Assembly (NCBI RefSeq): GCF_014699005.1
Contig: NZ_JACWZY010000003.1
Location: 310,001-374,000 of the forward strand
From: Spirosoma profusum
GTDB lineage: Bacteria > Bacteroidota > Bacteroidia > Cytophagales > Spirosomataceae
Direction: 5' to 3'
DNA length: 64,000 nucleotides
Positions 1 to 64,000 of this stretch are shown one piece after another; position 1 is the first letter of the stretch, and each line of letters starts with the position of its first letter. The notes under the pieces were generated by a model that saw nothing but the letters and a program-made list of their open reading frames with translations, was not told the origin of the DNA and ran no database searches. Made by a program: the position numbers and the translations under genes.

Positions 1-1
1 C

Positions 2-610
2 GGCCCCTTGCGGCTCGTTCTGTACGATCAGACGCCGAAGCATAAGGAAAACTTTATCAAACTGGTCGACCAGAAATTCTACGATAGTTTGCTTTTTCAC
101 CGCATCATTCCGCTGTTCATGATTCAGGGGGGCGACCCGAATTCTAAAAAAAGCAAAGACGGTGAACCGCTTGGTAATGGCGATATTGGTTATAAAGTAC
201 CGGCTGAAATTGTGCCGAATCTGTTCCATAAGAAAGGCGCTCTAGCCGCAGCTCGCGATAATAATCCTGAAAAAGCGTCGAGTGGTTGCCAGTTCTACGT
301 AGTGCAGGGGCGTGTATGGACGGCCGATGAATTGCAGAAACAAATTGAACGCGGTCAGGCGAGAGGTGCCAGCGGGCGCGTATTTACCGATGAACAGAAA
401 AAGGTCTATCAAACACTGGGCGGTGCGCCACACTTAGATGGAAATTACACCGTTTTTGGCGAAGTAATTGACGGAATCGCCGTTGTGGATAGCATTGCCA
501 AACAACCACGTAACGAAATGGATCGCCCAAATAAAAACGTTCGAATAAGTATGACCGGCGATTGGGTGAAGAAAAAGAAAATCACAAAACAGTATAAATA
601 CCAGTATTAA
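2..610 (+). CDS. Cyclophilin-type peptidyl-prolyl cis-trans isomerase, 5' truncated
   Basis: Catalyses cis-trans isomerisation of prolyl peptide bonds. The 202 visible residues carry the cyclophilin core: the strand LRLVLYDQTPKHKENF, then FHRIIP with the catalytic Arg, then FMIQGGDP, and later SSGCQFYVV and YTVFGEVIDG. The reading frame is open to the window edge and homologues have a short strand and usually a signal peptide before this point, so the start lies upstream; a TTG at position 8 is unlikely to be real. An insert of about 35 residues rich in charged and Gln residues (WTADELQKQIERGQ region) sits before the last strands, a feature I recall from Bacteroidota periplasmic cyclophilins. 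The C-terminus ends in a basic tail (KKKKITKQYKYQY). Whether the protein is exported cannot be seen. Confidence 0.93.
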   Translation, partial: GPLRLVLYDQTPKHKENFIKLVDQKFYDSLLFHRIIPLFMIQGGDPNSKKSKDGEPLGNGDIGYKVPAEIVPNLFHKKGALAAARDNNPEKASSGCQFYVVQGRVWTADELQKQIERGQARGASGRVFTDEQKKVYQTLGGAPHLDGNYTVFGEVIDGIAVVDSIAKQPRNEMDRPNKNVRISMTGDWVKKKKITKQYKYQY

Positions 611-694
611 ACATGAGGTATTGAATCGGAGAATAGTCAATTATACGTACATGAGCTCTCCTGATATCTTGATTCTACTGCTAGCTTCTCACTT

Positions 695-1609
695 ATGAAA
701 AAACGCATTCTGATTACAGGCGCTAATGGCTTGCTGGGCCAAAAACTGGTCGATTTATTAACCAAACAACCTGACATTGACTTAATTGCCACCGCGCGGG
801 GCGATAACCGTCTGCCTTACACAGATGGCTATACGTATCGGTCGATGGATATTACCGACCGTCAACAAGTGCTCGACGTAATCGGCGACGTAGCACCCGA
901 CGCAGTTATCCACGGCGCGGCCATGACCGATGTGGATAAGTGTGAAACCCAGAAGGATGCCTGCTGGGCGCAAAACGTCCATGCCGTTGAATACATCGTG
1001 GAAGCCTGCCAAAATACAGGAGCGTTTCTGGTACACGTATCAACCGACTTTATTTTCGATGGTTCGGCTGGCCCTTATGACGAGACGGCTGAGCCAAATC
1101 CGATCAGTTTTTACGGTTGGAGCAAGCAGGCCGGCGAATCGGTAGTGCGGCATTCGGATATAAAATGGGCCATCGCCCGCACGGTGCTTGTCTATGGCAT
1201 TGCCCACGACATGAGCCGCAGCAACATTATTCTCTGGGTGAAAAAATCGCTCGAAGATGGCAAAAATATTAAAGTCGTTACGGATCAGTGGCGCAGCCCC
1301 ACACTAGCCGAAGATTTGGCGATAGGATGTTACCTGATTGCTGATAAACAGGCGGAAGGCGTTTTCAATATTTCGGGAAAAGAGGTTTTGACACCTTACG
1401 AAATGGCCATCAAAACCGCCGATTATTTCAGCCTCGACAAATCGCTTATCGCCCAAGCCGACGCTTCTACGTTCACGCAGGTCGCCCGCCGACCACCGCG
1501 AACCGGCTTTATTCTGGACAAAGCCCGCACGGTGCTTGGTTATGATCCGCATTCGTTCGACGAAGGAATCGCGGTGCTGGCTGGCCAGTTGAAGCCACAG
1601 ACCATATGA
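695..1609 (+). CDS. RmlD-like SDR-family sugar nucleotide reductase
   Basis: 304-residue extended short-chain dehydrogenase of the dTDP-4-dehydrorhamnose reductase (RmlD) type, which reduces a 4-keto nucleotide sugar with NAD(P)H in the cytoplasm. Seen: N-terminal Rossmann motif GANGLLGQKL (residues 8-17), HGAAMTDVDKCE, STDFIFDGSAGPYDE with the catalytic Thr/Asp region, and the YGWSK catalytic Tyr-x-x-x-Lys. Length fits the family. No rmlA, rmlB or rmlC gene is nearby, so the substrate may not be dTDP-rhamnose. The stop TGA overlaps the next start as ATGA at 1606-1609, so it is translationally coupled to the tautomerase-like gene and heads a three-gene operon. Confidence 0.87.
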   Translation: MKKRILITGANGLLGQKLVDLLTKQPDIDLIATARGDNRLPYTDGYTYRSMDITDRQQVLDVIGDVAPDAVIHGAAMTDVDKCETQKDACWAQNVHAVEYIVEACQNTGAFLVHVSTDFIFDGSAGPYDETAEPNPISFYGWSKQAGESVVRHSDIKWAIARTVLVYGIAHDMSRSNIILWVKKSLEDGKNIKVVTDQWRSPTLAEDLAIGCYLIADKQAEGVFNISGKEVLTPYEMAIKTADYFSLDKSLIAQADASTFTQVARRPPRTGFILDKARTVLGYDPHSFDEGIAVLAGQLKPQTI

Positions 1610-1995: not shown

Positions 1996-2000
1996 CCAGC

Positions 2001-2455: not shown

Positions 2456-4390
2456 ATGATAAGTTCCGAGGGCGAGTTCATTCCTAAACTGAAGTCACTG
2501 ATTGATGCCAATCTGGATAATCCGTCGTTTTCAGTAGACGCCATCTGTACGGAGTTGGGGATCAGTCGGGCACAACTGCATCGGATTGTAAAAGATCAGT
2601 TCGACCTGTCTGTTACGTTGTATATCCGGAAAGTTCGTCTGGAAAAAGCCAACGAATTATTAACCAATACCAATCTGCGTATTTCGGAGGTGGCCGACCG
2701 GGTGGGCATCAATAATCCTCAGAATTTCAGTAAATATTTTACCGAAACATTCGCCATCAGCCCAACCGAATTCCGGCGGCTGAAGCAGGCTCCGGCGAAC
2801 GGGGCTGACGTAGTAACTCCTGAAACGATTACGATTCCTGATGCTATGTTGCCGCCCGTACTGGCAGCGCCAGACGTAGCAATTCCTCCTGATTCCCATT
2901 CTTCGTCAAAGCGGGCAAACCGCTGGGTACTGTATGGTTTTCTCCTGATCGTGTTGGTTTTAGGACTGACTATTTTCATCACTACGTATGTTCAATCGGA
3001 TGCCCGGCCGTCTGATGACGTCAAAACGTCGCTTACTGTGCTGCCCTTAATTAACATGGGTTCGCCCGATACCGACCCCATCTGCGAACGGCTGATGGAG
3101 GATATTCATACCGGCGTTTCGCTTATTCCGCATCTGCGCGTCATCGCCCGTTCATCGTCCGACCAGTACCGAAATACGCAAAAAAGTATCTGGCAAATTG
3201 GTGATGACCTGCGGGTTGCCAATATTCTGCGGGGGAAAGTGCTGAAATCCGGGGAGCAGATTCAAATGAAGATCGAACTCATCGACGCCAAAGAAGACCG
3301 GCTCATCTGGACTAAAAACTACAACGTAGCGCACCGTGACGTGTTTCAACTCACCGATCAAATTACGCAGGACGTAGCAAAACAGTTGAACCTGGAAAAC
3401 AAACCTACATCTAGTGAGAAATTAGAGTTGGCACGTACCAAAAATACGGTTGCCTATAACCATTTTTTGCAGGGCCGCCAGTTGGTGATTACCCGTGTGA
3501 AAAGCGACGTACTGGAAAGTATAACCCGCTTCGATCAGGCGCTGGCCCTCGATTCTACGTTTGCCGAAGCGTATGCGCTGAAAGCGCTGGCTTATTATGT
3601 GCTCCCTGAAACAGACACTATAAAACCTCCAAAAAATAAACAAATCGCTGAACAACTTGCCCTGACGGCTATACGGATCGATCCGGGGAATAGTACAGCT
3701 TACGGAATTTTAGGGACCATTTATTTCGATACGCGTCAGTGGCAGGCTGCCAGCAACGCCTTTAAAATCGCGCTCCAGAACAACCCAAACGATGCCCAGA
3801 TCAATTATTGGTATAGTCTGTTACTCAGGGCTATAGGGCGGGTCGATGAGTCTGTTCAATATAGTTCCAAGGCTATCGCGCTCGACCCGCTCCATCCGGT
3901 TTTCATGGGTGGGCATATCGCTAATTGCGCCTATGCCCGTAAGTTCGACTTAGCACGGGCGGGCATCGAGAGTGGGGAGGTACTCTTTAAACAGTCATAC
4001 AGTTATCAATCAGGTATTTCCAGATTCTGGATAAGTCAGCGTGCTTATGACCGGGCAGTGACTGATCTTCAAAAAGCCTTGCTATTGAACCCCGACGACA
4101 ACGGTAATTTGCCAGCGTTGATGTATTGTGAGGCTAAACGGGGCAATCGATCCAAAGCACAGGCTTATCTTCGTGGGCTAGCCAGCACCACTCCCCGCAT
4201 CGACTACAATCGGGCGGTTGTCTATGCCGGTCTGAACCAGTCAGATAGCTCGTTGTATTATCTTAAAAAAGCGGCTGATGCAGGCTACATCTACCGCGAT
4301 ATGAAGGTGGTAACGTTTTTTGAACCTTACCACGCTCATCCTGTTTTCAAAGGCATTCTGCGCCAGTATCATTACCCATCAGATCGGTAA
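2456..4390 (+). CDS. Membrane-anchored AraC-type HTH regulator with TolB-like and TPR sensor region
   Basis: 644-residue one-protein signal transducer. Order seen: AraC-family helix-turn-helix at residues 1-110 (ISEVADRVGINNPQNFSKYF, ending SPTEFRRLK); a Pro/Ala-rich linker; one membrane segment at about 156-180 (WVLYGFLLIVLVLGLTIFIT); a TolB/FlgO-like region with SLTVLPLINMGSPD and ANILRGKVLKSGEQIQMKIE; then TPR repeats from about residue 320 to the end. The topology puts the HTH in the cytoplasm and the TPRs in the periplasm, like CadC/ToxR regulators but with an AraC rather than a winged-helix reader. The gene stands alone; the nearest downstream gene on the same strand is the giant SBBP protein, a possible target. 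Confidence 0.85.
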   Translation: MISSEGEFIPKLKSLIDANLDNPSFSVDAICTELGISRAQLHRIVKDQFDLSVTLYIRKVRLEKANELLTNTNLRISEVADRVGINNPQNFSKYFTETFAISPTEFRRLKQAPANGADVVTPETITIPDAMLPPVLAAPDVAIPPDSHSSSKRANRWVLYGFLLIVLVLGLTIFITTYVQSDARPSDDVKTSLTVLPLINMGSPDTDPICERLMEDIHTGVSLIPHLRVIARSSSDQYRNTQKSIWQIGDDLRVANILRGKVLKSGEQIQMKIELIDAKEDRLIWTKNYNVAHRDVFQLTDQITQDVAKQLNLENKPTSSEKLELARTKNTVAYNHFLQGRQLVITRVKSDVLESITRFDQALALDSTFAEAYALKALAYYVLPETDTIKPPKNKQIAEQLALTAIRIDPGNSTAYGILGTIYFDTRQWQAASNAFKIALQNNPNDAQINYWYSLLLRAIGRVDESVQYSSKAIALDPLHPVFMGGHIANCAYARKFDLARAGIESGEVLFKQSYSYQSGISRFWISQRAYDRAVTDLQKALLLNPDDNGNLPALMYCEAKRGNRSKAQAYLRGLASTTPRIDYNRAVVYAGLNQSDSSLYYLKKAADAGYIYRDMKVVTFFEPYHAHPVFKGILRQYHYPSDR

Positions 4391-4730
4391 TTAATAACAC
4401 CCTTTTCTGGCTCTCCTTCTGCATCGTGTATTGTATGTATAAAGCAATAGCGTATACAAATGCAATAATAGAATAAGCTTTTCCTGATCGTGAGACAATA
4501 GACCAAGTTTTTGAAACAATAAGCGCAGCCTTTCCTCTAGCCTGATTCCACTTTTGTCATGCTCAACCATCCGAGGCCAGGGTGGTCTGTCGAGCTATCT
4601 ATTGCTGAAAATTTTTGTGTTAACCGACTGCTCCGGGGCAGTTGGATACTGATTGGCAACCGTTAATCGGCTATCGATTCAGTTGGCTGTTTGCGTCTAT
4701 TTTTCATGTTATCCTCAGCTCTTTACTGGT
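4391..4730. other. Intergenic stretch without recognisable gene
   Basis: 340 bases, AT-rich in the first half. I see no open frame with family resemblance, no strong hairpin and no clear TANNTTTG promoter. In-frame codons from a TTG at 4653 run into the next gene, but they precede its signal peptide and are treated as untranslated leader. Confidence 0.5.
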
Positions 4731-7700
4731 ATGAACTCATTTTTACGCTTTCGTGATGCGCTTTATTGGTCTGACTGTTTTCGGATTTGCATTGGACTGT
4801 TGATTTGGGTTGGATTGACAACCGCTGCCTATGCACAAACATTTGTGTGGGCAAAACAAATGGCGGGCGGTTTCAACTCGGGAAAATCCATCGCGGTAGA
4901 TGGCGCGGGCAATGTCTACACCGCTGGTTTCTTTAATGGTACAGTCGATTTTGACCCCGGACCAGGTGACTTCAGCCTGACAGCAACCGATATCGATATG
5001 TATGTGAGCAAGCTCGATGTGGCTGGTAATCTACTATGGGCCAGGCGTATAGGCGGTCCTGGTTCTGACGCGGCTAATTCCGTTGTGGTAGATGGGTCTG
5101 GGAATGTCTACACCACGGGTCATTTTTCCGGAACAGTGGACTTTGACCCTGGACCGGGCGTATTCAACCTGACTGCGGGAGGACTCGAAGGCGCCTTTGT
5201 GAGTAAACTCGATGCAGCGGGCAATCTGGTATGGGCCAAAGCGCTGGCCGGAAATGGTAGTGTTGATGGCTATTCGATTGCCGTTGATGGCTCCGGAAAT
5301 GTTCATACGACCGGCGTTTTCAGTTATACGACCGATTTTGATCCGGGTCCGGGCGTCTACAGCCTGAGTGCAGTAACGCTGGCCAACACTCCTCAAAATG
5401 ATGACATTTTTGTGAGCAAACTCGATGCATTGGGCAATTTCGTTTCGGCGTATCGTTTGGGAGATACCAGTAACGATTTCGGCTACGCAATTGCGGTGGA
5501 TGGAACGGGAAGTGTGTACGCCACAGGCATTTTCTCCGGCACGACGGATTTTGATCCCGGCCCAGGTGTAAACAACCTGACTTCGACGGGGGCGATGTAC
5601 ATCACTAAACTCGATGCCTCGGGTAACCTCGCGTGGGTGAAATTGCTGGAGGGTGGAATTGCGGCTTTCTCGATAGCTGTGGATGGAGCGGGGAACGCCT
5701 ACACCACAGGCACTTTGAACGGCACCGTCGATTTTGATCCTGGCTCTGGCGTATTCGATCTCACCGGAACAGGTGGTGTAAAAGGTTTTGTGAGTCAACT
5801 CGATGCAGCGGGAAATTTCGTGTGGGCCAGGAATCTGGGGGGGATAGGCTATTCGATCTCGGTTGATGGATTACGGAATGTCTATACAACTGGTCGTTTT
5901 CGAGGTACATCCGATTTTGACCCTGGACCGGGCGTATACGACCTGACAGAAGGCGGTAGTAGTGGCGGTAACATCTTTATCAGCAAACTGGATATATCGG
6001 GCAATTTTGCCCGGGCCAGCAGTTTGGTTGGTGCTGGTTTTGATACCGGTAACGGAATCGCAGTCGATAAATCGGGTGATGTACACACAACTGGTTTTTT
6101 CGAGGGCTCGGCTGATTTTGATCCCGGTTCGGGTGTATTCAATCTGTCAGCTGGGGGAACTTATGATACGTTTGTTCTCAAGTTCAATCAGTTAGATGTT
6201 GTTGCCAGACCTACTTTGGTTTGCGTAGGCAGCACGGTGGCTCTTTCTGTAACGGCCAATGGTGGTACGTCTCCATTTTCCTACACATGGATAGCCCCGG
6301 CGGGTGCTACGTTGTCAGCTACCAATACGTCCGCTGTTTCAGCCACATTAACGGCGCCCGGTGAACAGACCTTCACTGTTTCGGTTGCTGGATTGGGCGG
6401 CCCTCAGAGCACCACTACGGTGAGTGTAACGGCAACGGGCTCAGCAGTAAGCATCACAGCCAACCCCAGCCTGACCATTACATCGGGTAGCAGTACTACG
6501 TTGACGGCGTCGGGAGCGAGTTCGTATAGCTGGTCGAGCGGGCAAAATACGGCGGCCATATCCGTAAGTACGGCCGGTCCCTATTCGGTCACTGGTACGT
6601 CCGGGGGCTGTTCATCGACAACAGGTGTGGTCGTCACCGTCATCAATACGGCCCCTACAATTACAGGATTCTCGGCTAATCCGGCCGCAGTTTGTGTAGG
6701 AAATCCGGTAATGTTTACGGCTTCCGTCGGCAATGTAAGCGGTGGTTATTCCTACACGCTGACAGATGGCAGTAATCCGGTTACGGGTACATCAACAAGT
6801 AATACGTTCAGTCAGAGCCTGATATCCAGTAGTACTAGTGGGCAAAATTTTACGCTGACAGTTAACAGTAACATCCAGATAGCGCAGGCAACTACTACGT
6901 TGACGGTCAGTAGCCTACCTACAGCTACCCTCTCTGTCAGTCCATCATCAACCCTAAGCTGTTCTCAAACCAGCCTGACCTTAACGGCCGGTGGAGGTAC
7001 AAGCTACACCCTCAGCAATGGGCAGAGTAATACTACAGGCCAGTTTGTAATTAATCAGCCGGGTACTTATAGCGTGATTGTGGCTAACGCTAGTGGCTGT
7101 ACGGCTATAGCTAGCGTAACTGTATTTCAGGACAGTAGCATACCAACCGTTACTGTTACCCCCGCCAGTGCTACGTTGACCTGTGCCAATTCCTCTACCA
7201 TCCTGTCGGCCAGTGGCAGCGGTACGTTCCGATGGAATACCGGAGCCATTACGTCCATGATCAGTGCTACGTCCGCCGGAATATACTCTGTTACGTTGAC
7301 GGCGATCAATGGTTGTACGGCGACGACCTCCGTTCAGGTGTTTCAGGATAATAGTGTACCAGCAGTGAGCATAAATCCATCGAGTTTTACGTTGACCTGC
7401 ACTAGTCCCACAGCTAGCTTGAGTGCGGTAGGCAACGGGACGTATCACTGGAATACGGGAGCTACTACGTCTTCCATTACTGCTACGTCGGCGGGGGCTT
7501 ATTCCGTTACCTTAACGGCTTCTAGTGGATGTACGGCAACAGCCACGGCTCAGGTGTTTCAAAACACAACTATCCCATCAGTCAGCATTTCACCGACCAG
7601 CACTACGTTAACCTGCGCTAACCCCACGGTCAGTCTGACGGCGGTGGGAGATGGTACGTATCGCTGGAATACAGGGAGCACTTCACAGGTGATCAGCGCT

Positions 7701-10274
7701 ACGTCAGCGGGGACTTATTCAGTGACTTTGACGGACGCTAATGGTTGTACGGCGACGACCTCCGTTCAGGTGTTTCAGGATAATAGTGTACCGTCGGTGA
7801 GTATCAATCCCAGTTCGGCAACGTTGACCTGCCCAAGCCCTGCTGCGAGTCTGACGGCGACAGGCAACGGCACCTTCCGCTGGAACACCGGCGCTACGTC
7901 CGCAATCATCAGTGTGACTGCTGCTGGAATATACTCCGTTACATTAACATCAACCAGCGGCTGTTCCGCTTCTACATCCGCCACCGTTTACCTGAATAAT
8001 AACGTACCTAATTTGACCATCAACCCTGCCAGTGCTACGTTGACATGTACCAATTCCTCGGTTAGTCTGACGGCGGTGGGTAGTGGGACCTATCGTTGGA
8101 ATACGAGTGCTATTACGCCTACTATCAGTGCTACGTCCGCCGGAATGTACTCTGTTACGTTGACGGCTGCCAATGGTTGTACGGCAACGGCTTCAGCACA
8201 AGTCTTCCAGAATAACAGCGTGCCGTCGGTGAGTATTTCACCAGGTAGTGCTACGTTAACCTGCGTCAATCCTACGGCTAGTTTAACGGCGGTAGGTAGT
8301 GGTACGTATCGCTGGAACACCGGGGCCACTTCGCAGGTGATCAGTGTGACCGGCGCGGGTGCGTATTCCGTTACGTTGACCGGGGCTAACGGCTGCACTG
8401 CAACTTTTTCGGCGCAGGTTAGTCAGGATAATACCCCGCCTTCTATTACTGTTTCCGTAAGTCCTTCTCTGACCATTAACCCTGGGCAGAGTGCTACGCT
8501 CACTACCAGCGGAGCTACTACGTACCGTTGGAATACGGGGGCAATTACGTCCACCATCGTGGTCAGTTCGGAAGGTGTTTATTCGGTCACGGGTACTATA
8601 GGTATCTGTTCGGCGCAGGCTTCCGTAACGATATCGGCTCCGTTCGCTATTTCTGCGGTCATTTCGCATTCCTGCCAGCAGATTGCCAGTAATCGCTACG
8701 TTATCAGCTTCACTCCGCAGTATAGCGGGCGCAATGGACAGCCGATTAGTTTCTCGATTGCCAACGAGATATTTCCTACTACCAATGTCGGTCCCTATAC
8801 GCTGCAACTCTATGACGATAATCCGACTATCATTCTTCATGCACAACAGGGAGGCACGCCGGGCGAGGTCAATTACACGTATAACTGGCTGGCTATCTGC
8901 CGAAATCCGCAACCCAACACACCTCCAAGAGTCGATCAGCCGCTTACCGACCAGACTGCCCGCGTCGGTCAGGAATTTGGCTACACGATCCCTCAGACGA
9001 CCTTCACGGACAACGAATCTCCCCAAAGTCTAACGCTCGCTGTTACGGGATTACCCGCCGGGTTGGGCTTCACGCCACCATTTCAGATCGGTGGGATACC
9101 CAACGTAGCGGGTGTAAGTTCGGTGACCATAACGGCTACCGATCCCGGCGGACTTACTGCAGTTGCCACCTTTGTACTCACTGTGGTCGATCCTTCTGCT
9201 ACCAACGCACCACCCACGCTGGCTAACCCCGTCGCCGATCAGGTGACTATTCAGGGGCAACCCTTCAGTTTGAGTCTGAGTAATACGTTTAGTGATGCAC
9301 AGACGCCCCAGACATTGATGTTGACGGCCAGTGGCATACCTGCTGGACTTACGCTGGTGGGGACTACGCTCTCCGGTACGCCTTCCGTAAGTGGTACGTC
9401 CACCATATCGCTGACGGCTACCGATCCGGGCGGGCTGAGTGCTACCATGACTTTCGGCATGACGGTACTGCCTTCTTCAGCAACGGCCAGTGCGCCCTTC
9501 GCCATTACGGGAGTAAGTCCGCTCACTTGTACGCAGATTGCGGCTAATCGCTATGATATCAGCTTCAATCCCCGATATAGTGGCCTCAATGGGCAGCCGA
9601 TCAGTTTCTGGGTGCAGGACGAAATGTCGCCCACGACCGCGTCGGGGCCTTACAGTCTGCAACTCTATACTGATAATCCAACGGTTGTGCTGAAAGCCCG
9701 GCAGACGGGTAGCGCGGGCGAAGCCAGTTTTACTTACAACTGGTTGAGTTTTTGCCAGAACCCGCAGCCGAATACACCACCTCGGGTGAATCAGCCGCTC
9801 ACCGACCAGACCGCCAAAGTAGGAGAGGAGTTTGGCTATACGATTCCTCAGACGACCTTCACCGACAACGAGTCGCCCCACAGTCTTAGCCTGACGGTGA
9901 GTGGCTTGCCGACTGGAATGAGTTTTAGCCCGCCTGTTCAGATTGGTGGTGTTCCTGGTTCGACGGGAGTAAGTTCGGTTACGGTTACAGGTACAGATCC
10001 ACAAGGGTTAAGTGTGAGTACAAGTTTTGTGTTACGAGTGGTCGGCTCTGGTTGCCGGGATACTAACGGAGCTATTACTACCGTCAAATCAGGGAGTTGG
10101 AGTGACCCTGCTGTGTGGTCGTGTGGAGTGGTGCCTACAGGCAGTGATGGAGTACAACTCAATCATGCGATCAGTTTGCCCGCTGGCTACGTAGCAGAAG
10201 TTAAAACGCTACGTTATGGGAGTGGCGGTGGCCTGACGAACCAGACCGGTGCCCGACTTCGACTGGGCTTTTAA
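4731..10274 (+). CDS. Giant secreted SBBP-propeller / tandem Ig-like repeat protein
   Basis: 1847-residue exported protein. The ATG at 4731 is chosen because it directly precedes a signal peptide (ICIGLLIWVGLTTAAYAQ). Order seen: seven SBBP-like propeller repeats, each with a VDGxGNVYTTGxFxGTxDFD core, to about residue 490; PKD/Ig-like stretches; a tandem array of about 72-residue Ig-like units with SATLTC and NGCTAT cysteines (6917-8430) and a more diverged unit after it; then an 85-residue module (8637-8900), two Ig-like putative-binding domains starting near PLTDQTARVGQEFGY and TIQGQPFSLSLSNTF, a second copy of the 85-residue module (9492-9755), another Ig domain, and a terminal GSWSDPAVWSCGVVP segment. 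Probably a surface adhesin or scaffold. No standard T9SS tail is visible, and the end after the GSWSDPAVW motif looks short. Confidence 0.88.
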   Translation: MNSFLRFRDALYWSDCFRICIGLLIWVGLTTAAYAQTFVWAKQMAGGFNSGKSIAVDGAGNVYTAGFFNGTVDFDPGPGDFSLTATDIDMYVSKLDVAGNLLWARRIGGPGSDAANSVVVDGSGNVYTTGHFSGTVDFDPGPGVFNLTAGGLEGAFVSKLDAAGNLVWAKALAGNGSVDGYSIAVDGSGNVHTTGVFSYTTDFDPGPGVYSLSAVTLANTPQNDDIFVSKLDALGNFVSAYRLGDTSNDFGYAIAVDGTGSVYATGIFSGTTDFDPGPGVNNLTSTGAMYITKLDASGNLAWVKLLEGGIAAFSIAVDGAGNAYTTGTLNGTVDFDPGSGVFDLTGTGGVKGFVSQLDAAGNFVWARNLGGIGYSISVDGLRNVYTTGRFRGTSDFDPGPGVYDLTEGGSSGGNIFISKLDISGNFARASSLVGAGFDTGNGIAVDKSGDVHTTGFFEGSADFDPGSGVFNLSAGGTYDTFVLKFNQLDVVARPTLVCVGSTVALSVTANGGTSPFSYTWIAPAGATLSATNTSAVSATLTAPGEQTFTVSVAGLGGPQSTTTVSVTATGSAVSITANPSLTITSGSSTTLTASGASSYSWSSGQNTAAISVSTAGPYSVTGTSGGCSSTTGVVVTVINTAPTITGFSANPAAVCVGNPVMFTASVGNVSGGYSYTLTDGSNPVTGTSTSNTFSQSLISSSTSGQNFTLTVNSNIQIAQATTTLTVSSLPTATLSVSPSSTLSCSQTSLTLTAGGGTSYTLSNGQSNTTGQFVINQPGTYSVIVANASGCTAIASVTVFQDSSIPTVTVTPASATLTCANSSTILSASGSGTFRWNTGAITSMISATSAGIYSVTLTAINGCTATTSVQVFQDNSVPAVSINPSSFTLTCTSPTASLSAVGNGTYHWNTGATTSSITATSAGAYSVTLTASSGCTATATAQVFQNTTIPSVSISPTSTTLTCANPTVSLTAVGDGTYRWNTGSTSQVISATSAGTYSVTLTDANGCTATTSVQVFQDNSVPSVSINPSSATLTCPSPAASLTATGNGTFRWNTGATSAIISVTAAGIYSVTLTSTSGCSASTSATVYLNNNVPNLTINPASATLTCTNSSVSLTAVGSGTYRWNTSAITPTISATSAGMYSVTLTAANGCTATASAQVFQNNSVPSVSISPGSATLTCVNPTASLTAVGSGTYRWNTGATSQVISVTGAGAYSVTLTGANGCTATFSAQVSQDNTPPSITVSVSPSLTINPGQSATLTTSGATTYRWNTGAITSTIVVSSEGVYSVTGTIGICSAQASVTISAPFAISAVISHSCQQIASNRYVISFTPQYSGRNGQPISFSIANEIFPTTNVGPYTLQLYDDNPTIILHAQQGGTPGEVNYTYNWLAICRNPQPNTPPRVDQPLTDQTARVGQEFGYTIPQTTFTDNESPQSLTLAVTGLPAGLGFTPPFQIGGIPNVAGVSSVTITATDPGGLTAVATFVLTVVDPSATNAPPTLANPVADQVTIQGQPFSLSLSNTFSDAQTPQTLMLTASGIPAGLTLVGTTLSGTPSVSGTSTISLTATDPGGLSATMTFGMTVLPSSATASAPFAITGVSPLTCTQIAANRYDISFNPRYSGLNGQPISFWVQDEMSPTTASGPYSLQLYTDNPTVVLKARQTGSAGEASFTYNWLSFCQNPQPNTPPRVNQPLTDQTAKVGEEFGYTIPQTTFTDNESPHSLSLTVSGLPTGMSFSPPVQIGGVPGSTGVSSVTVTGTDPQGLSVSTSFVLRVVGSGCRDTNGAITTVKSGSWSDPAVWSCGVVPTGSDGVQLNHAISLPAGYVAEVKTLRYGSGGGLTNQTGARLRLGF
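6917..8430 (+). repeat. In-frame tandem array of ~216-bp Ig-like units
   Basis: Seven consecutive units of about 72 codons lie within the giant secreted protein, each with two cysteines, a WNTG motif (from the second unit on) and an FQD/FQN linker. Units two and four end in an identical stretch of more than 40 bases (7317-7360 and 7749-7791) two periods apart, which indicates recent duplication or recombination within the array. Confidence 0.85.
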
Positions 10275-34869: not shown

Positions 34870-35805
34870 ATGACTACGTTTTCACGGCGCCGTTTTCTAC
34901 AATCGTCTGCTGCGTTGGCAGGTGGCACTTTATTTACTTCTGGAATTCCTGCTTTCGCCCCGGCGCAAAAATCACTACGTTTGGGTGGCCCTATTTTCCT
35001 GAAAAGCGATGATCCTGGCGAACTGGCGCGCGAGCATCGTCGGCTACGTTATAGTGCCGCCTACGTACCAACTGTAGACCTGAAAGATTCAGCAAAAATT
35101 GACGCCATTCGCAAAGCGTTTGCTGCTCAGAACGTAGTGATTGCCGAAGTAGGCGCATGGGTAAATATGCTGGATGCTGACCCCGAAAAACGCAAAAAAA
35201 ATCTGGACTACGTAACAGAACGCTTAGCGCTGGCTGAAGCCGTAGGCGCACTCACCTGCGTAAACATCGGTGGCTCCTACAACCCAACTCGCTGGGACGG
35301 CCCCGACCCTCGCAACGTAACGCAGGAGTACATTGACGCAACCGTCGAAAATTGCCGGAAAGTGATCGATGCTGTGAAACCCAAACGGGCCAAATTTGCG
35401 CTCGAAATGATGGGCTGGAGCCTGCCCGACGGTCCCGATTCGTACCTGAAATTCATCAAAGCCATTGACCGACCGGCATTTGGTGCGCATATCGATATTG
35501 CCAACATCATCAATTCGCCAACGCGCTATTATAACAACACGGCGCTCATCAACGATACGTTCAAAAAATTAGGCCGCTGGATTGTGTCGTCGCACGCGAA
35601 GGACGTAGTGGGGCGCGATGTTCACTTCGCCGAAACCATGCCCGGACGCGGTGGCATGGACTATGTAGCGTACATCCGCAACGTAACGTCGCTGCCGCAG
35701 GAAGTGCCGCTATTGCTGGAACACCTGCGCACACCGGAAGAATATGACGAAGCCCGACAATACGTCATCAGTCAGGCCGATAAAGCTGGAGTGATGCTAG
35801 CGTAG
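34870..35805 (+). CDS. Sugar phosphate isomerase/epimerase-family TIM barrel, Tat-type leader
   Basis: 311 residues. Twin-arginine leader SRRRFLQSSAALAGGTLF, then a xylose-isomerase-like TIM barrel: VVIAEVGAWVNML, ALTCVNIGGSYNP, KFALEMMGWSLPD with a metal-binding Glu, FGAHIDIANIINS, WIVSSHAKDVV and PLLLEHLRTPEEY with the last metal ligand. Likely a divalent-metal-dependent isomerase or epimerase of a sugar or keto-sugar in the periplasm; the substrate is unknown. Divergent from the ECF sigma gene with 133 bases between starts. A second family member lies at 36544. Confidence 0.87.
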   Translation: MTTFSRRRFLQSSAALAGGTLFTSGIPAFAPAQKSLRLGGPIFLKSDDPGELAREHRRLRYSAAYVPTVDLKDSAKIDAIRKAFAAQNVVIAEVGAWVNMLDADPEKRKKNLDYVTERLALAEAVGALTCVNIGGSYNPTRWDGPDPRNVTQEYIDATVENCRKVIDAVKPKRAKFALEMMGWSLPDGPDSYLKFIKAIDRPAFGAHIDIANIINSPTRYYNNTALINDTFKKLGRWIVSSHAKDVVGRDVHFAETMPGRGGMDYVAYIRNVTSLPQEVPLLLEHLRTPEEYDEARQYVISQADKAGVMLA

Positions 35806-42260: not shown

Positions 42261-42265
42261 AACTT

Positions 42266-47558: not shown

Positions 47559-47780
47559 AAACGGGTACGATAAAAGGAAAAGAAACTAGTTGACAAAGCT
47601 ATAGACGAGTAATTGATAAAAGGTAATTCGTCAGGAAATAAAATACATAGTTAAAAATACCTATTCATGGCAATTTGTTTACAGTTAAGTATATTAAAAT
47701 AAAAATAATAAATCGAAGAGTAATTGTATAAGTTAAACTATCCAAAGTCCAATTTTATCACTTTTAATCATTTTTCAATC
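47559..47780. other. AT-rich divergent intergenic region
   Basis: 222 bases clearly more AT-rich than the surroundings, between the starts of the YifB gene and the 47781 lipoprotein gene. It must hold both promoters; no clear element or repeat is visible. Confidence 0.45.
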
Positions 47781-48581
47781 ATGAGAGGTAACTATTTGTT
47801 TCTGCGAATTCCAACCACATGGTTCACGAAGTTGATTGTGATATTAACTCTCTTGATGGGTTGTACACGTAATTCTGCACAGATTACAGAAGATGTACTG
47901 CCAGTCTCATCTCGACGTCAAGCAGCTCAGGAAAAGAAAAAGCCCAAAACGAGAGTAACCTGGGACTACCTGCGGTACATGGTAAGAAATGGTGAGAATC
48001 CATCTATTTACAAACTACTTAAGGATCGTAATAAACTCATTCCTAGAGGTGCAGCAAAAGTGGCTGATGGTGGTTGTCATAGCAGCCCTTGGGACCCATG
48101 TGTACCTGATGAATTTGACGAGGGTGATCTTGCATCAATGAGAGTCGATGTCCCCTTTTTACTAAATGGACAAGTGGTTCATTTATCGCTTACTGTGCAG
48201 TATAAAATCAGTACGGGTGATGTCGTAAGTGTTGGTGCCACTGTATATGGTAATACCGGGAATACAGTTTGGACTAATTATTCACCAGCTGCCGCTAATT
48301 ATGCTAATGGGCAAATGACTGTAATCGCAAATATGCAATATACGTCGAGCGTTCAAACAACTAACACATTTGCTACTAATGTAGGTGGTAGCGGTGAAGT
48401 TGATGGTACAGGTATTAATGTAGGTTTACAGTACGAGAACAGTACACAGACTACACTTTCACAGACTGGAGTACTTTATACAAACTTTTCGGTCAACTTA
48501 CATAGTGCTTACGGTAGTGGGATGATTCAAATGAATGGCCCTGGTGGAATTCAGCGTGACTACTACATTGAGCCGCAATAA
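47781..48581 (+). CDS. AT-rich lipoprotein of unknown function
   Basis: 266 residues. The ATG at 47781 precedes a lipoprotein signal (LIVILTLLMGCTRNS). The mature part has a Lys/Arg-rich start (RRQAAQEKKKPKTRV), a Cys-bearing GGCHSSPWDPCVPDEFDEGD segment and a Ser/Thr/Asn/Gln-rich beta region (NTVWTNYSPAAANYANGQMT). I do not recognise a family. Two sampled lines give about 40-42% GC, below neighbouring genes near 50%, and the TACGT/ACGTA word is rare in it (two sites in 870 bases), both suggesting recent acquisition. It is flanked by an AT-rich promoter region and a long perfect hairpin. Confidence 0.7.
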   Translation: MRGNYLFLRIPTTWFTKLIVILTLLMGCTRNSAQITEDVLPVSSRRQAAQEKKKPKTRVTWDYLRYMVRNGENPSIYKLLKDRNKLIPRGAAKVADGGCHSSPWDPCVPDEFDEGDLASMRVDVPFLLNGQVVHLSLTVQYKISTGDVVSVGATVYGNTGNTVWTNYSPAAANYANGQMTVIANMQYTSSVQTTNTFATNVGGSGEVDGTGINVGLQYENSTQTTLSQTGVLYTNFSVNLHSAYGSGMIQMNGPGGIQRDYYIEPQ

Positions 48582-57397: not shown

Positions 57398-57404
57398 TTT
57401 AGCG

Positions 57405-57505: not shown

Positions 57506-57509
57506 AATT

Positions 57510-58379: not shown

Positions 58380-58388
58380 GGCTATTAG

Positions 58389-58449: not shown

Positions 58450-58457
58450 ATATGCTT

Positions 58458-61400
58458 CTAACGCACTTTCACACTAGCACTAGCTTCGTCATCTTCCCCA
58501 TTCTGGTAGCCATTGCCCGGCGTTGAGTCTGGGTCTGCTACGTCGGCGTCGATAAGCTGTGCCTGGATGGTACCGCTACCGGCAGGTTGCCACTTCAATG
58601 ATAACGTAGCGGATTTTCCGGCGGGCAGCGTGTTGATAAACGCTTTATAGGTCTGCCCATTCACCTGAATCCAGCCCGCCGGGCTTTGCGAACTGAACGT
58701 ACCGTTTGGCAATACAACCTGCACAACTACCGAAGCCGCTGACGACCCACCCCGGTTGCTAACCGTCAGCGTTGTGGTGACAAGCTCGGAAGCTACTGGC
58801 GTTACTTTATCCACTTTCGCCAGTAAGCTCAGGTCGGCGGTGTTAGCATCAGTGGTCGGTTGATTACCTGAAACGACGGGTAGTGGTACCTGATTCGGGT
58901 TGGCCGATGCCGAGAAGAAGTTGTCGTCTGTAGTACGTATATCGATGGTGGACGCATCGTCCTGGCCATCACCCGTGCCCGAATTAGGCTGGCTATCGGA
59001 GTCGGGTGTTTGGCTGGCGGTGATTTGCGCCGACGTAGCGAGGCCACCAAGTTGCGTGGGCGTAGCGTCGAAACTGATAGATGACAGACTATTAGCATTA
59101 ACTGTCCCGAGGTTGGCGCTTACGACGCCGTTGGCAAAACTTACCCCCGGCGAACTACTGCTCACAAAAGCTAATCCGGCCGGAAGCACACTTTTTAATT
59201 GAACACCCTGTGCATTATCTGGGCCGGCGTTGCTGGCTTGCAGCGTATAGGTTACTACGTCGCCAACCTTCGGCACTTTGTTGTTGACCACCATATTCAG
59301 TGATACGTCGGCACTGCCCGTACCCACCACTACGTTGCCCTGCCCGGACGTAGCACCCAAACCGCACGCATTTGCCACGGACGCCAGTTGATACGTTGTT
59401 GTTGCTGTGGGTGTTACCGAAACCAGATACGGATTCTGATACGTAGCGGTCACTGACTGCCCGTTCGTGAGCGTAAACGCCCACGGAGCTGGCCCCGTAA
59501 ACGTAACAGGCAACTGCGCCGACTGCCCCGCACTCACCACCGCATTTCCGCTCAACGTAGCAGTCGTCGGTTCACCAATTTTTACTTCAACCGGATCAGA
59601 TTCAACCTGGCAGGAACCGTACTGAGTCACGACGGAATAGACACCAGATTGGGTAGCGTAAAACGGTGAACTGGTTGCGTTGGGTATAATGACACCGTTA
59701 CGTTTCCATTGCGGGTTGCCGAATGCGTAATTAGTGGCACTTAACTGTATGCTGTTGTTGGGGCATAAGTGTTTCCGTTGATTCATTACGTTAACAATCG
59801 GTTTTGTTGCCGCGGTAGTTCCTACATAAACTTCCTTCGATAAGCCAGTACAGCCTCCACTTCCATTCGTAATACGCACCGTGTAAGTCCCAGATTGACT
59901 TGTGTAGTAAATACTTGCTGTGACGCCGTTAACCAGTATTCCATTGCGATACCATTGATATTGGTATCCGCTAAACTCACCATTACTATTAGTAGATAAG
60001 TATGCTGCGCTACAGGCCTCTATTACCTGAATTCTGGGCGTAGTCGTATTGGAAAAGGTAAGCGATACCGGCTCAGATGTGGCCGAACAAGAGCCTCTCG
60101 TAATCCGTAATGTATAGCTTCCTGAAGTCGTAACTGCATAACCCGAATTGGTTGCGCCGGGAATATCTACGCCATCCCGCTGCCACTGGAAACTGCCATT
60201 GTTAATACTAGAGTACAGCCAGCGCGTTTCTCCTGAACAAATCGCTTTACTGCTAAAACCATACGAAATGCTTACTTTGAGCTGGTCTACCAGCGAAACT
60301 GCGACTGAATTGCTTCGTGTTTCACAAGCCCCCTGTTTCAGCACAAAAGAATATACTCCTGATTGATAGGCATACTGATAGCTATTGTTTGATGTCAAAG
60401 GAGCTAATGTAGTGATGGCTGTTCCATTACGAAACCATTGAATAGAGTGATTATTAAATCCGTAAGACAGCCCGGAATTAAGATAGGCGATAGCGTTTAA
60501 GCCTGTACAATAAAGTGAATCAGTGGGAGGGGCTAAATGGGCGTAGAGTGACGATCCAAACTGAAGATAAATGGGTGATGATGTGACAGCACAACTCCCA
60601 TCTACGACCCTGACACTATATCGGCCTGTCTGATTCGCGGTATAGGTATAACTAGTAGCGCCGACAATATCGACATTGTCCCGCTTCCACTGAAAGCTGG
60701 CGGGTTCACCAACGTAGTAATTATTTATCGTTACAGGGCTGTCGGCGCATTGGGGAACTTCGCCAATCGGCGAAATCAAACTAGCGAAGACAGAGGTCGA
60801 AAAGCTCAGATTATATTGACCGGACGTAACCGTGCAGCCTGCCTGCCTGATTATAACTTTGTAAACACCAGCCTGTTGAGCGAGATGCGTAGACGAGACT
60901 TCACCGCTGACAGGACTGTCATTTAAAAGCCACTGATAAGAATCAGCGCCGTTGGTCGCTAAATTATTATACGTGTAAAGAGCAGGGTTTAGCCGAACGG
61001 AACTACCCGTACAAACGGTTGCTCCACCGTAGCTGCTTGCTCGTCGGTCAAATACATAAGCAGAAGTTAAATTGCCAATCGCCAGCGCATCACTTATTGA
61101 ACTCTCAACTTCCGGATTTGTAGCAATAATTTTCACCCGATAATTAGTCCCGTAAGAAAATGCACTTGATCCACTTGGCAGTGTTACCGAAATAGGGCTG
61201 GAAACACCACTGCTGAGTTTTTGAGCGTTTGTAAAGTTGCCGTTGGCGTCAGATAGCCACACATCAAACCTATTTCCGTTTCCAAAGCCTGGACCTGACG
61301 TGGTGAATGATACGTTGAACGTATTACCCGCACAGAGCGTAGCGTTAGAAAAAGCCGTTATGGCGATGGTGGGTAACGTATAAGAAACAGCGAAAGCGTC

Positions 61401-63665
61401 GGTTGTATAGAGGCCGCGCCCGAACGTAGCGGCTGCGATGCGGCCATCGGAAGGGCGATACTTCAACATATTTACTCGATAGTTTCCAATGCCATTGTTC
61501 GTTGGAGCCCAGTCAGGATTTGACGACGTAATATCAGTGGTAGACCATACGCCTAGTTCAGTCGCTAGCAAAACCTGTAGCCGGTTTTGCGGATTGAAAA
61601 TGGCGTAACGAACCGGGATATCTGGCAAGCCATGTCCCGGTTCATCTTTACTGAGCCAGATATTGCCGTTCGTGCTCGTATACCAAACCGATTTAACACC
61701 AAAATTGGAATACGTAACAAGCAGTTCGTTATCATCTACGCCCACATCGATACAGGAAACGACACCATTTTGTAGGTACGTATTGTTGCTAAGCGACGTA
61801 ACATTAGGAGTAGTCTGATTCAGGTTAGTTACCTTATAAATATGACCACCAGAAGTTCCCACAAATAACGACTGCTTATCGGGGCTGAGCTTAAAAAAGG
61901 AAGGCGTATTGTTTAAACCGGAAAGCGGTAACGTGGTGGAACTGGTTGTACCGCCAATACCGGTTATTTTACGGATTGAATAGCCATTGACGTAATCGTA
62001 GGCATAGAGTGTATTGGATTGACTATCGTACTCGGTCGGGTTATTAGATGTGGCAGAAGTACCTGCAATGTATGTCCAGCTATTTCCATTAGACAGGTAA
62101 TAGCTTCCGTAGTAGGAGGCCAAAACCTGGATGGTTGGATCGTCTTCGTCAACAAATGCGTATCCACCATCGTTGCCGCTATTGACAACGCTACTTCCAG
62201 TCGATAGATTTGGGTTGGGCACTTTTACAGTTCCTATTCCACGTGTGCCGCCTACCAAATAAGCGTTTCCAGGTGTAGCCTTCATGGCTACTGAATAAAA
62301 GCTACTCGATCGGTAACCTGAATTTCGGTTTATAACTGTGGGAGCTGGCTGAGGATTATTTCCCCAATCGGGCGACCACTCAATGCCTTGGTTACTGCTG
62401 AGCGCAACCCCCGTGCCACCCGGTTGAAACAGCAGCAGATTTTGGTATGAACTAGAGTTAGGATGGAGGGCAGAACTCCAGGTCGATCCACCATCACTAG
62501 AGCGATGCCAGTAAACACCACCCGCGTAAACATAATTAGGATCGGTCGGATGGACTGACAATGCTAAGTTATAATATCCATTTCCATTCGTAAAAAAACT
62601 GCTGGACGAAGCAACGGGGACCGCTATATCGGTCCAGGAAGCTCCACCATTAATGCTTTTCTTGAACCAGCGTAAATCTTGCGTGAAGTTTGGAGAATTA
62701 TAAGCGTGCGAAACACCGTAAATAACCTGATTCGTCCCTGAAGTAGAAGAGGCCAATGCCAGCTCTGTGCGAAGTCCACCTGTGGAACCGGGCGGAGTAA
62801 TTTCAGTCCAACTCGTACCCGTAGCATCGTTTGACTTGAAAACACGACTAGGATTGAAACCGGCATACAAAATACCATCCGAGCCGATTTCCAGGTCTGT
62901 TACGTTGTCGTTGGAATAATTGCCGCCAAGACCACCTACGCCAATCAACTGGCCTGGTGCCAGAGCGTAACTCCAGCTTGTGCCGCCATTGCTCGACTGC
63001 ACAATGCCATATCGGGTAGCCACAAACACTTTTCCAGTGCTGTTAACCACAATCCGCTGAATATATGATAAGCCCTGATTCACACCCGGATAGTTACCGC
63101 CGGGAATACTGCTGCTCAGGCGTGTCCACGTAACACCGCCATTGGTTGTTTTCCAGATGCCACCTCCAGCCAGGCCATCATACGTATCGCCAGTACCTGC
63201 GTACATCACCTGTGGGTTCGAGGGGTCGGCGGCAAGGGCGGTGATGACGGTGTTTTCCCACGTATCACTTACTGGTGTCCACGTAGCGTTGGCGTCGGTG
63301 ATGTCGTTGGTGTACCACAGTCCACCGCTTAAACTCCCCGCCCAGACTTTCTTGCGGGCTGGGTCGTTCAGGTCGAACATGAGCGCACGCGTGCGGCCGG
63401 CTATGTTGCTGGGGCCACGTTCCTGCCACATTACGTTCGGGATGGCACTATTGGTCTGTGCGGCCGGGCGATTTCTTAATTGCTGGCGGGCTGCTTCCAG
63501 ACGTTCGTACGGGATGGTGTCTAAAGCTGGGTCAACTAATCGACGATACTCGTCTTCTGCGATACGTCGAAGGGTGTCGAAGGGTTGGGACTGAGCTGAT
63601 ACAAGGGTAACGGAAAGCGAAAACAAAACAACGGCTAGTAGCCGATAAGCAGTAGAAAAGGGCAT
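58458..63665 (-). CDS. Giant secreted BNR-propeller / Ig-like / DUF11 protein
   Basis: 1735 residues; ATG at 63665 begins a signal peptide (RLLAVVLFSLSVTLVSAQ). Order seen: BNR/sortilin-type propeller about 75-760 (GGGIWKTTNGGVTWTRLSSS, VRYAIFNPQNRLQVLLATEL, AAATFGRGLYTTDAF); seven or eight divergent Ig-like units about 760-1450 (NGXYYTSQSGTYTVRI-type strands with a Cys pair); DUF11/CARDB-like repeats from about 1451 (VGDVVTYTLQASNAGPDNAQ) and 1605 (SELVTTTLTVSNRGGSSAAS). The end STPGNGYQNGEDDEASASV is nearly the same as that of the partial gene next to it. Probably a surface-exposed adhesin. Base composition differs between its parts. Confidence 0.86.
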   Translation of the reverse strand: MPFSTAYRLLAVVLFSLSVTLVSAQSQPFDTLRRIAEDEYRRLVDPALDTIPYERLEAARQQLRNRPAAQTNSAIPNVMWQERGPSNIAGRTRALMFDLNDPARKKVWAGSLSGGLWYTNDITDANATWTPVSDTWENTVITALAADPSNPQVMYAGTGDTYDGLAGGGIWKTTNGGVTWTRLSSSIPGGNYPGVNQGLSYIQRIVVNSTGKVFVATRYGIVQSSNGGTSWSYALAPGQLIGVGGLGGNYSNDNVTDLEIGSDGILYAGFNPSRVFKSNDATGTSWTEITPPGSTGGLRTELALASSTSGTNQVIYGVSHAYNSPNFTQDLRWFKKSINGGASWTDIAVPVASSSSFFTNGNGYYNLALSVHPTDPNYVYAGGVYWHRSSDGGSTWSSALHPNSSSYQNLLLFQPGGTGVALSSNQGIEWSPDWGNNPQPAPTVINRNSGYRSSSFYSVAMKATPGNAYLVGGTRGIGTVKVPNPNLSTGSSVVNSGNDGGYAFVDEDDPTIQVLASYYGSYYLSNGNSWTYIAGTSATSNNPTEYDSQSNTLYAYDYVNGYSIRKITGIGGTTSSTTLPLSGLNNTPSFFKLSPDKQSLFVGTSGGHIYKVTNLNQTTPNVTSLSNNTYLQNGVVSCIDVGVDDNELLVTYSNFGVKSVWYTSTNGNIWLSKDEPGHGLPDIPVRYAIFNPQNRLQVLLATELGVWSTTDITSSNPDWAPTNNGIGNYRVNMLKYRPSDGRIAAATFGRGLYTTDAFAVSYTLPTIAITAFSNATLCAGNTFNVSFTTSGPGFGNGNRFDVWLSDANGNFTNAQKLSSGVSSPISVTLPSGSSAFSYGTNYRVKIIATNPEVESSISDALAIGNLTSAYVFDRRASSYGGATVCTGSSVRLNPALYTYNNLATNGADSYQWLLNDSPVSGEVSSTHLAQQAGVYKVIIRQAGCTVTSGQYNLSFSTSVFASLISPIGEVPQCADSPVTINNYYVGEPASFQWKRDNVDIVGATSYTYTANQTGRYSVRVVDGSCAVTSSPIYLQFGSSLYAHLAPPTDSLYCTGLNAIAYLNSGLSYGFNNHSIQWFRNGTAITTLAPLTSNNSYQYAYQSGVYSFVLKQGACETRSNSVAVSLVDQLKVSISYGFSSKAICSGETRWLYSSINNGSFQWQRDGVDIPGATNSGYAVTTSGSYTLRITRGSCSATSEPVSLTFSNTTTPRIQVIEACSAAYLSTNSNGEFSGYQYQWYRNGILVNGVTASIYYTSQSGTYTVRITNGSGGCTGLSKEVYVGTTAATKPIVNVMNQRKHLCPNNSIQLSATNYAFGNPQWKRNGVIIPNATSSPFYATQSGVYSVVTQYGSCQVESDPVEVKIGEPTTATLSGNAVVSAGQSAQLPVTFTGPAPWAFTLTNGQSVTATYQNPYLVSVTPTATTTYQLASVANACGLGATSGQGNVVVGTGSADVSLNMVVNNKVPKVGDVVTYTLQASNAGPDNAQGVQLKSVLPAGLAFVSSSSPGVSFANGVVSANLGTVNANSLSSISFDATPTQLGGLATSAQITASQTPDSDSQPNSGTGDGQDDASTIDIRTTDDNFFSASANPNQVPLPVVSGNQPTTDANTADLSLLAKVDKVTPVASELVTTTLTVSNRGGSSAASVVVQVVLPNGTFSSQSPAGWIQVNGQTYKAFINTLPAGKSATLSLKWQPAGSGTIQAQLIDADVADPDSTPGNGYQNGEDDEASASVKVR

Positions 63666-63803
63666 AAATAACAAGCTACGGAACTGTACTTAATTAGCCT
63701 TAGCAAGTTACAAATTCTTCTTAAATTAGTGACTGTAAATAGTTTACTATTTGCCTATAAATCCCACAGTCTCAAAATGTCCTTATGGCATCTTCGCCGT
63801 CGT

Positions 63804-64000
63804 CTATTTCATTAAAATTGTTATCGCGGCTTCGTCATCTTCGCCATTCTGATAGCCATTGCCAGGCGTTGAGTCGTCATCGGCGGGGTTGCTTCCGGCA
63901 ATTTGAGCCATAACAATACCACCACTACTCGGCTGAACGGATAGTGTCAAAGTTCCCTTCTGTCCAACTGGAATCGAACCGATGGTGCCTGTTATCGTTT
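63804..64000 (-). CDS. C-terminal end of a paralogue of the giant propeller/DUF11 protein
   Basis: 65 codons visible before the stop TAG at 63804-63806; the gene continues beyond the window edge. The sequence TIGSIPVGQKGTLTLSVQ, then IAGSNPADDDSTPGNGYQNG and EDDEAAITILMK, aligns with the last ~65 residues of the 58458 gene (shared STPGNGYQNGEDDEA). It lies 138 bases upstream of that gene on the same strand, so the two are tandem paralogues, at least in their ends. The domain is DUF11/CARDB-like. Confidence 0.82.
   Translation of the reverse strand, partial: TITGTIGSIPVGQKGTLTLSVQPSSGGIVMAQIAGSNPADDDSTPGNGYQNGEDDEAAITILMK

Follow-up and report, generated by a model that had tools for sequence, protein, structure and literature searches.

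The window analysed here, a stretch of 64,000 nt of the Spirosoma profusum genome, carries the pentamer ACGTA/TACGT 472 times on both strands compared with about 125 expected at equal base frequencies, bearing out a predicted strong excess. The pentamer is, however, just the inner part of a longer, asymmetric word, the 9-mer DACGTANYR. The 9-mer occurs at 306 sites (4.78/kb) across genes and spacers, 151 on the plus strand and 155 on the minus strand, with pentamer densities of 7.4/kb in coding and 7.2/kb in non-coding DNA. Dense stretches lie at 35041–35640, with 9 pentamers and 6 of 7 synonymously reachable 9-mer positions filled, and at 58501–59580, with 15 pentamers and 14 of 18 reachable 9-mer positions filled; the original prediction had rightly picked out both as dense, but had counted seven and 13 pentamers respectively. 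A desert at 3557–6159, in which 16 reachable positions in succession are empty (log10P −5.47), spans the 3′ half of an HTH/TPR gene (2456–4390) to the 5′ part of a beta-propeller/Ig-repeat gene (4653–10274), and another at 59800–60710 lies within a DUF11/PKD-like repeat gene (58458–63674), with 0/10 reachable 9-mer and 0/23 reachable ACGTA positions filled, compared with 28/60 and 39/95 in the remainder of that gene. As had been reported, the pentamer is absent from both 59800–60710 and 4731–6166; in the latter, 0/21 reachable ACGTA positions are filled and 1/10 reachable 9-mer positions is counted as filled, necessarily at the edge. The AT-rich gene at 47781 was likewise correctly described as having few, with the plus-strand ORF 47724–48581 (GC 0.41, without a Pfam match) holding 2 pentamers and 0/7 reachable 9-mer positions filled (p 0.004, uncorrected, among 322 ORFs).

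The suggestion of a genome-wide favoured word holds, with 35,751 DACGTANYR sites in 8.73 Mb (4.1/kb, about 4,090 per Mb) compared with 2,471 for the reversed pattern, and an observed/expected ratio (O/E) of 7 to 12, depending on the yardstick. Ordinary composition, be it codon, dipeptide or mutation-context bias, is scarcely credible as the cause. The tetramers ACGT and CGTA are themselves frequent, with a tetramer-based Markov estimate of 337 pentamers in the window giving an O/E of only 1.40, although this expectation is inflated because both tetramers carry the pentamer's signal, and a mild excess of the word in coding DNA is seen in unenriched congeners too (385 compared with about 289 by codon shuffle, 25 genomes summed). 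However, synonymous-codon shuffles of 40 window ORFs yield 142.6 pentamers compared with 413 observed (ratio 2.9, z 23.4), or a ratio of 2.1 once codon-boundary dinucleotides are also kept, and DACGTANYR in coding DNA lies 7.2-fold above the shuffle, compared with a median of 1.05 and a maximum of 1.32 for ten control words. On the basis of these shuffles codon or peptide usage was rejected as the cause. Furthermore, DACGTANYR is about equally dense in coding and non-coding DNA (4.1/kb in spacers compared with 0.32–0.36 in unenriched congeners), is enriched in every phase, and is influenced by flanking bases up to four from the ACGT core.

Occupancy, the share of synonymously reachable positions actually carrying the word, provides a direct measure of the force upon it. 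Within 322 ORFs, 54.1% of reachable DACGTANYR positions are filled (1960/3623), compared with 8.5% in 25 unenriched congeners, and rpoBC has 31 of 60 occupied. The word had been described as spread over both strands and across codon frames, and all six strand and phase classes are indeed enriched: with motif columns 1, 4, and 7 at the wobble place, occupancy is 0.51 compared with 0.027 in unenriched congeners and 0.43 compared with 0.022, and with columns 2, 5, and 8 there, 0.62 compared with 0.12 and 0.52 compared with 0.083. As all six classes rise, the whole word is favoured rather than one mutable base. One-base directed mutation or very-short-patch repair was rejected on this phase independence and on the lack of any strongly depleted single-mismatch neighbour (lowest ratio 0.74 relative to the 25 unenriched congeners). 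The favoured word originally proposed is thus supported, but refined to an asymmetric 9-mer of patchy occurrence in the genus.

Column enrichments relative to these 25 congeners, with two stretches reading N throughout (G006 and G007) excluded from these and later counts, show a strict ACGT, a favoured A in the next column, then N, Y, and R, and a base other than C before the core. Mismatches in the flanking columns are still enriched 1.5–4.5 fold and those in the A column 1.15–1.8 fold, with ACGT-column mismatches at 0.74–1.19 fold, core near-matches thus not being over-represented. The word is not palindromic here: NYR is demanded on one side, and a T preceding ACGTA, which renders the core palindromic, is near its background share (1.08). 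A dispersed repeat element was rejected because base preferences do not extend beyond about four to five bases from the pentamer. Pair distances, computed without a control, have a weak 10-base period. Per kb, this genome offers 1.29 times as many reachable positions as unenriched congeners (a small comparison set of 215 kb from 14 genomes, spanning 5.9–8.4/kb), with 13 control words averaging 1.03 with a maximum of 1.15; in the four remaining strongly enriched genomes (1.00–1.09) and in rpoBC, any such amino-acid shift is small at most. A word filling half of its permitted positions, and perhaps shifting amino-acid usage, matters for the interpretation of codon bias and protein evolution in such genomes.

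The deserts are in part exceptional, with ACGTA-free gaps in excess over 484 kb of this genome (68 above 700 bp compared with 33 expected, and 16 above 1 kb compared with 4.7). The desert at 3557–6159 surpasses anything seen in 300 simulations, the most extreme simulated run reaching log10P −5.35. Import of a homologous tract was considered as its source, but its top-scoring match outside this genome is partial, with 64% identity over about 1.2 kb. In contrast, the run at 59874–60656 (log10P −2.97) is at chance level for 484 kb, where the simulated most extreme run averages −3.34, and thus only the first of the proposed sharp deserts stands out. Seven low-occupancy ORFs outside the window were scanned against Pfam, one being without a match and six matching a weak FtsQ-type POTRA, a sigma factor, a carbamoyltransferase, two collagen-like repeat proteins, and a histidine kinase, with no mobile-looking genes among these six. 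Low-occupancy genes are therefore mostly ordinary, and absence of the word is not, as had been suggested, a general mark of recent acquisition.

A role as a replication or segregation signal, also raised originally, is disfavoured, with no strand skew in this genome (chi2 24.8 over 22 segments) and, in genome G023, which has clear GC-skew halves, a correlation of −0.06 between strand bias and GC skew over 20 segments. Sampled sites in G023 number 357 forward and 309 reverse, and in G035 the strand chi2 is 7.9 over 4 segments, whole-genome counts being balanced.

Among 36 genomes of the genus, DACGTANYR is strong in five, scattered on the rpoBC tree, and near background in 27, whilst none of 390 genomes of the class outside the family exceeds about 0.61/kb, and a wider density check of 80 loci from distant named records gave a maximum of 0.62/kb. 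Common rpoBC positions were dropped as a sign of an ancestral enriched state, as only about 60 are reachable and sharing largely follows. In the genus sample, CGCCKC is almost absent, with 6 occurrences compared with about 947 expected. As DACGTANYR is strong in a few species of one genus whilst most others stay near background, genome comparison and assays in cultivable strains offer routes to the responsible gene.

It is highly probable (roughly 0.9) that a word-level fixation bias acts on DACGTANYR sites, the natural logs of the odds ratios by strand and phase class (about 1.6 to 3.6) being read as this bias, which presumably acts site by site through a protein that reads the word. The best reading appears to be a site-by-site bias resembling uptake-sequence drive, in which DNA carrying the word recognised by such a protein would be favoured on entering the cell or in recombination between cells. 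Word-bearing alleles would then displace near-matches wherever the protein sequence tolerates this, in the manner that the molecular-drive model proposes for DNA uptake sequences, and lineages in which the process weakened would see the word return to background. That uptake or recombination is the cause, in keeping with the uptake word among the roles first raised, is a tentative proposal, with natural transformation in these species being putative. The proposal draws support from the word being unskewed and graded, since the portions of PMC1939737 concerned describe uptake sequences as lacking orientation bias and subject to a graded drive; against it, core mismatches do not appear over-represented, unlike the near-matches described for uptake sequences. 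An open frame with a ComEC domain (PF03772) is found in 23 of 24 genus genomes searched, enriched or not (the remaining genome is 71% complete), and the presence of ComEC therefore fails to account for why enrichment is patchy.

Selection for binding of an abundant chromosome-organising protein, such as a nucleoid protein or topoisomerase, with a small benefit per site, is a more doubtful explanation. The even density along G023, the presence on both strands, the affinity-like graded preferences, and the YR steps in the word would suit it, and a near-neutral benefit could become visible in some species only, simply because effective population sizes differ; however, sites are clustered rather than regularly spaced, occupancy is no lower beside other sites, and most of the genus lives at near-background levels. 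A methylation word, in which the ACGT core is recognised by a methyltransferase, or by the mismatch repair it guides, and is multiplied by biased repair or by selection for methylated sites, is unlikely, although the strict inner palindrome and looser edges recall HIP1, which deviates most towards its outer positions, and alternate HIPs accompany a matching methyltransferase (PMC4390886, in the sections concerned). T before the core is favoured 1.35–1.46 fold in the other four strong genomes (G033, G035, G006, and G023), and the strong methyltransferase matches in this genome are one each of the C5, Eco57I, and HsdM types, with HsdM-type matches over 100 bits in 5/5 strong and 8/15 unenriched genomes. 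However, the word is asymmetric, phase independence speaks against a one-base repair bias, and type I methyltransferase targets are bipartite. Profile searches of four methyltransferase Pfam families in the same 24 genomes found no family that is present in each of the five strong genomes and missing from the others, PF01555 being missing from two strong genomes (G000 and G006), PF00145 from four, and PF07669 exceeding 100 bits in 2/5 strong and 5/15 unenriched genomes, and so lend no support to the predicted methylation target.

A Chi-like or self-marking signal, with a nuclease-helicase sparing word-bearing DNA, is improbable: a short, asymmetric, and very dense word could shield a cell's own DNA from degradation, but Chi and KOPS usually show an orientation bias with replication, which is absent here. 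More speculative still is a two-sided DNA identity code of the genus, unlike known ones, in which ACGTANYR would mark own DNA (up to four per kilobase), driving itself and even bending protein sequences, and CGCCKC (GMGGCG) would be forbidden by a genus-wide activity recognising foreign DNA without protective methylation; we give this little credence.

Known uptake sequences, including the DUS of Neisseriaceae and the USS of Pasteurellaceae, are longer and rarer than the shorter, denser DACGTANYR. Uptake sequences are also cited, in the portions of PMC1939737 concerned, as more frequent in non-coding DNA than expected, whereas DACGTANYR is about as dense in coding DNA, and its core mismatches differ from their near-matches as above. 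As a short asymmetric over-represented word it resembles Chi (PMC8022716, in part) and KOPS, albeit without strand skew. No description of the word was found among the matches listed in open-licence papers. The relevant sections of PMC4390886 give HIP1 300–2700 occurrences per Mb and an O/E of 55–228 in most cyanobacteria outside group C1. Unlike DACGTANYR, an asymmetric degenerate 9-mer that none of the four methyltransferase families searched accompanies consistently, the HIPs described there are palindromic 8-mers with matching methyltransferases. However, DACGTANYR shares with HIP1 its high frequency throughout the genome, its shortness, and its strict inner core with looser edges, and, like the HIP-type words GCGATCGC (HIP1 and alternate HIPs) in these sections, it abounds in certain genomes whilst being rare in others related to them.

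The excess of ACGTA/TACGT in the window is as originally noted, with 472 occurrences counting both strands against ~125 expected at equal base frequencies, a tetramer-based Markov ratio of 1.40, and a synonymous-codon shuffle ratio of 2.9. The stretches described as dense (35041-35640 and 58501-59580) are so, although the figures of seven and 13 sites were slightly low (nine and 15 found), and those described as empty (4731-6166 and about 59800-60710) contain neither pentamer. Genome-wide, the asymmetric word DACGTANYR occurs at 35,751 sites in 8,731,341 bases, compared with 2,471 for the reversed pattern; its coding density is 4.8/kb and its non-coding density 4.1/kb. The corresponding values in unenriched congeners, the genus genomes near background density, are 0.62/kb and 0.32-0.36/kb, the latter being that of a control word. 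In predicted ORFs of this genome the observed/expected ratio of the word against a codon shuffle is 7.2, with ten control words showing a median of 1.05 and a maximum of 1.32; 25 unenriched genomes pooled show a mild coding excess (385 words against a summed ~289).

Flank preferences read from 464 kb of this genome (the window and 20 further stretches) reveal that one side of ACGTA admits any base at the first place, prefers Y (more often C than T) at the second and R at the third, with C disfavoured on the other side and weak preferences 1-2 bases further out. Set against 780 kb from 25 unenriched congeners, 484 kb of this genome carries DACGTANYR at an 8.1 times higher density, an excess that is lost when any core letter of ACGT is swapped (ratios of 0.74-1.19), and partly retained with other bases at the A following the core (1.15-1.8), with a mismatch at the Y (1.55-2.6) or R (1.5-2.1) column, and with C in the first column (4.5). 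The word lacks symmetry, and its profile is affinity-like. In each of five strongly enriched genomes, ACGTA before NYR shows the highest enrichment of its class, with a T ahead of the core preferred 1.35-1.46 fold over the unenriched set in the other four (G033, G035, G006, and G023), and 1.17 fold in this genome (G000).

Reachable positions, those at which a choice among synonymous codons would yield the word, were counted in ORFs called simply as longest frames; 1960 of 3623 (54%) are occupied in 322 ORFs of this genome, and 31 of 60 in rpoBC. All six strand-and-phase classes are raised, despite different motif columns falling at the wobble place in each, with odds ratios of ~5 to 37 (natural log 1.6 to 3.6). 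Across genomes, in ORFs of at least 150 codons, occupancy is 54.6% (1923/3520) in this genome, 36% in G033, 35% in G035, 30% in G006, 22% in G023, 14.5% in G019, 14% and 13% in G151 and G150 (another genus of the family), and 9.5% in G031, compared with 8.5% (385/4539) in pooled unenriched genomes. A reachable position is more often occupied when one or two further sites lie within 60 to 120 bp; for three to five such neighbours the sparse data show a flat or uncertain trend. The first tenth of the 322 ORFs shows an occupancy ~10 points lower.

Reachable positions are themselves more frequent in this genome outside the rpo region (8.97/kb against 6.93/kb in 14 unenriched genomes, a 215-kb comparison set), the ratio of 1.29 exceeding that of 13 control words (mean 1.03, SD 0.06, maximum 1.15). 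The ratios of G033 (1.02), G035 (1.09), G006 (1.00), and G023 (1.08) all lie inside their controls' range, so that only in this genome do the data suggest that the word pulls on protein sequence. In its rpoBC, reachable positions show no rise (60 against a mean of 60.4).

No forward/reverse difference was found along 22 segments of this genome (chi2 24.8), with a chi2 of 7.9 over four segments in G035, and less in G033, G006, and G023. In 20 further segments of G023, with GC skew showing both chromosome halves, strand bias does not track GC skew (correlation -0.06), and word density is even (variance/mean 0.94); forward sites outnumber reverse ones in this sample (357 and 309), but the whole-genome counts are 4650 and 4691. 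Gaps between words are overdispersed (CV 1.29), and occupancy residuals, allowing for reachability, are weakly correlated up to 1.6 kb. A weak, uncontrolled 10.0-base period is seen in word pair distances over 484 kb of this genome, after removal of the 3-base period. Seven empty runs fall below a log10P of -3, against a simulated mean of 1.3 (maximum 6 in 300 simulations), the most extreme after reachability correction being 3557-6159 of the window, followed by L006:13942-15106 (log10P -5.16), which covers an ORF whose FtsQ-type POTRA match is weak and falls below the cut-off. Among seven low-occupancy ORFs outside the window, from 28 listed, six match ordinary families and one has no match. 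Some tracts are therefore devoid of the word, but none of the scanned ones has a mobile look, so that absence of the word is not a general mark of recent acquisition.

Five of 36 genus genomes are strongly enriched (4.1, 2.8, 2.5, 1.9, and 1.6 per kb), four are intermediate (0.85-1.17 per kb), and 27 lie at 0.37-0.67 per kb, these densities being approximate as genome sizes were rounded. In an rpoB and rpoC tree covering 32 genus genomes (four incomplete genomes without an rpoB match being absent), five changes are required to place the five strong genomes, which is the upper limit and no saving over shuffled labels. The sisters of G000 (100), G033 (100), G006 (94), and G023 (77) are unenriched, and G035 adjoins the clade that G000 forms with its unenriched sisters (72). 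Elsewhere in the family, G150 and G151 reach 1.4 per kb and the other 184 genomes at most ~0.52; none of 390 genomes outside the family, among 395 class genomes searched, exceeds ~0.61. Stretches of G150 and G151 (103 and 120 kb) carry the word at 2.5-2.9 fold over codon shuffle; as it lies outside their eight most enriched ACGTA-type words, with weak flank preference, this genus may carry not quite the same signal.

Possibly more striking than DACGTANYR itself is the near-absence of CGCCKC (CGCCGC and CGCCTC; reverse GMGGCG), with six occurrences against ~947 expected on both strands of 1.78 Mb from 32 genus genomes, and none against ~50 in the window, every other one-letter neighbour being common in the genus sample. 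This avoidance is present in strongly enriched and unenriched genus genomes alike, and is independent of the patchy word. CGCCGC is also scarce in G150 (3 of 50 expected) and G151 (0 of 67), is not avoided in a Hymenobacter stretch (23 against 24.5), and comes close to its expected count in most of 13 further loci, many of which have low expected counts. Among plasmid stretches of 50 kb, that of Spirosoma oryzicola has neither hexamer (23 expected), that of S. rhododendri has 6 against 38 expected, and that of a Fibrella 18 against 42. A literature text search for CGCCKC or GMGGCG returned, by title, unrelated subjects only. Three of the six genus sites lie within 2.8 kb of one another at 14289-17039 of L024 (a stretch of G003), in DNA that is perhaps recently acquired. 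The palindromic hexamers CCGCGG, CCCGGG, CTCGAG, GAGCTC, GGATCC, and CTGCAG are 4-8 fold under-represented in 484 kb of this genome, which has the usual look of restriction-site avoidance.

Four methyltransferase families were sought in 24 genomes, nine with some enrichment and 15 without. PF01555 is absent from two of the five strong genomes and PF00145 from four, with PF07669 exceeding 100 bits in two of five strong and five of 15 unenriched genomes. PF02384, above 100 bits in all five strong and eight of 15 unenriched genomes, is the nearest to an association, though not a clean one. ComEC, the uptake channel protein, was found in 23 of the 24 genomes, enriched or not. Of two candidate models, the pattern appears to fit the drive model written for DNA uptake sequences (PMC1939737) better than the methylation model of HIP1, the iterated palindrome of cyanobacteria (PMC4390886).
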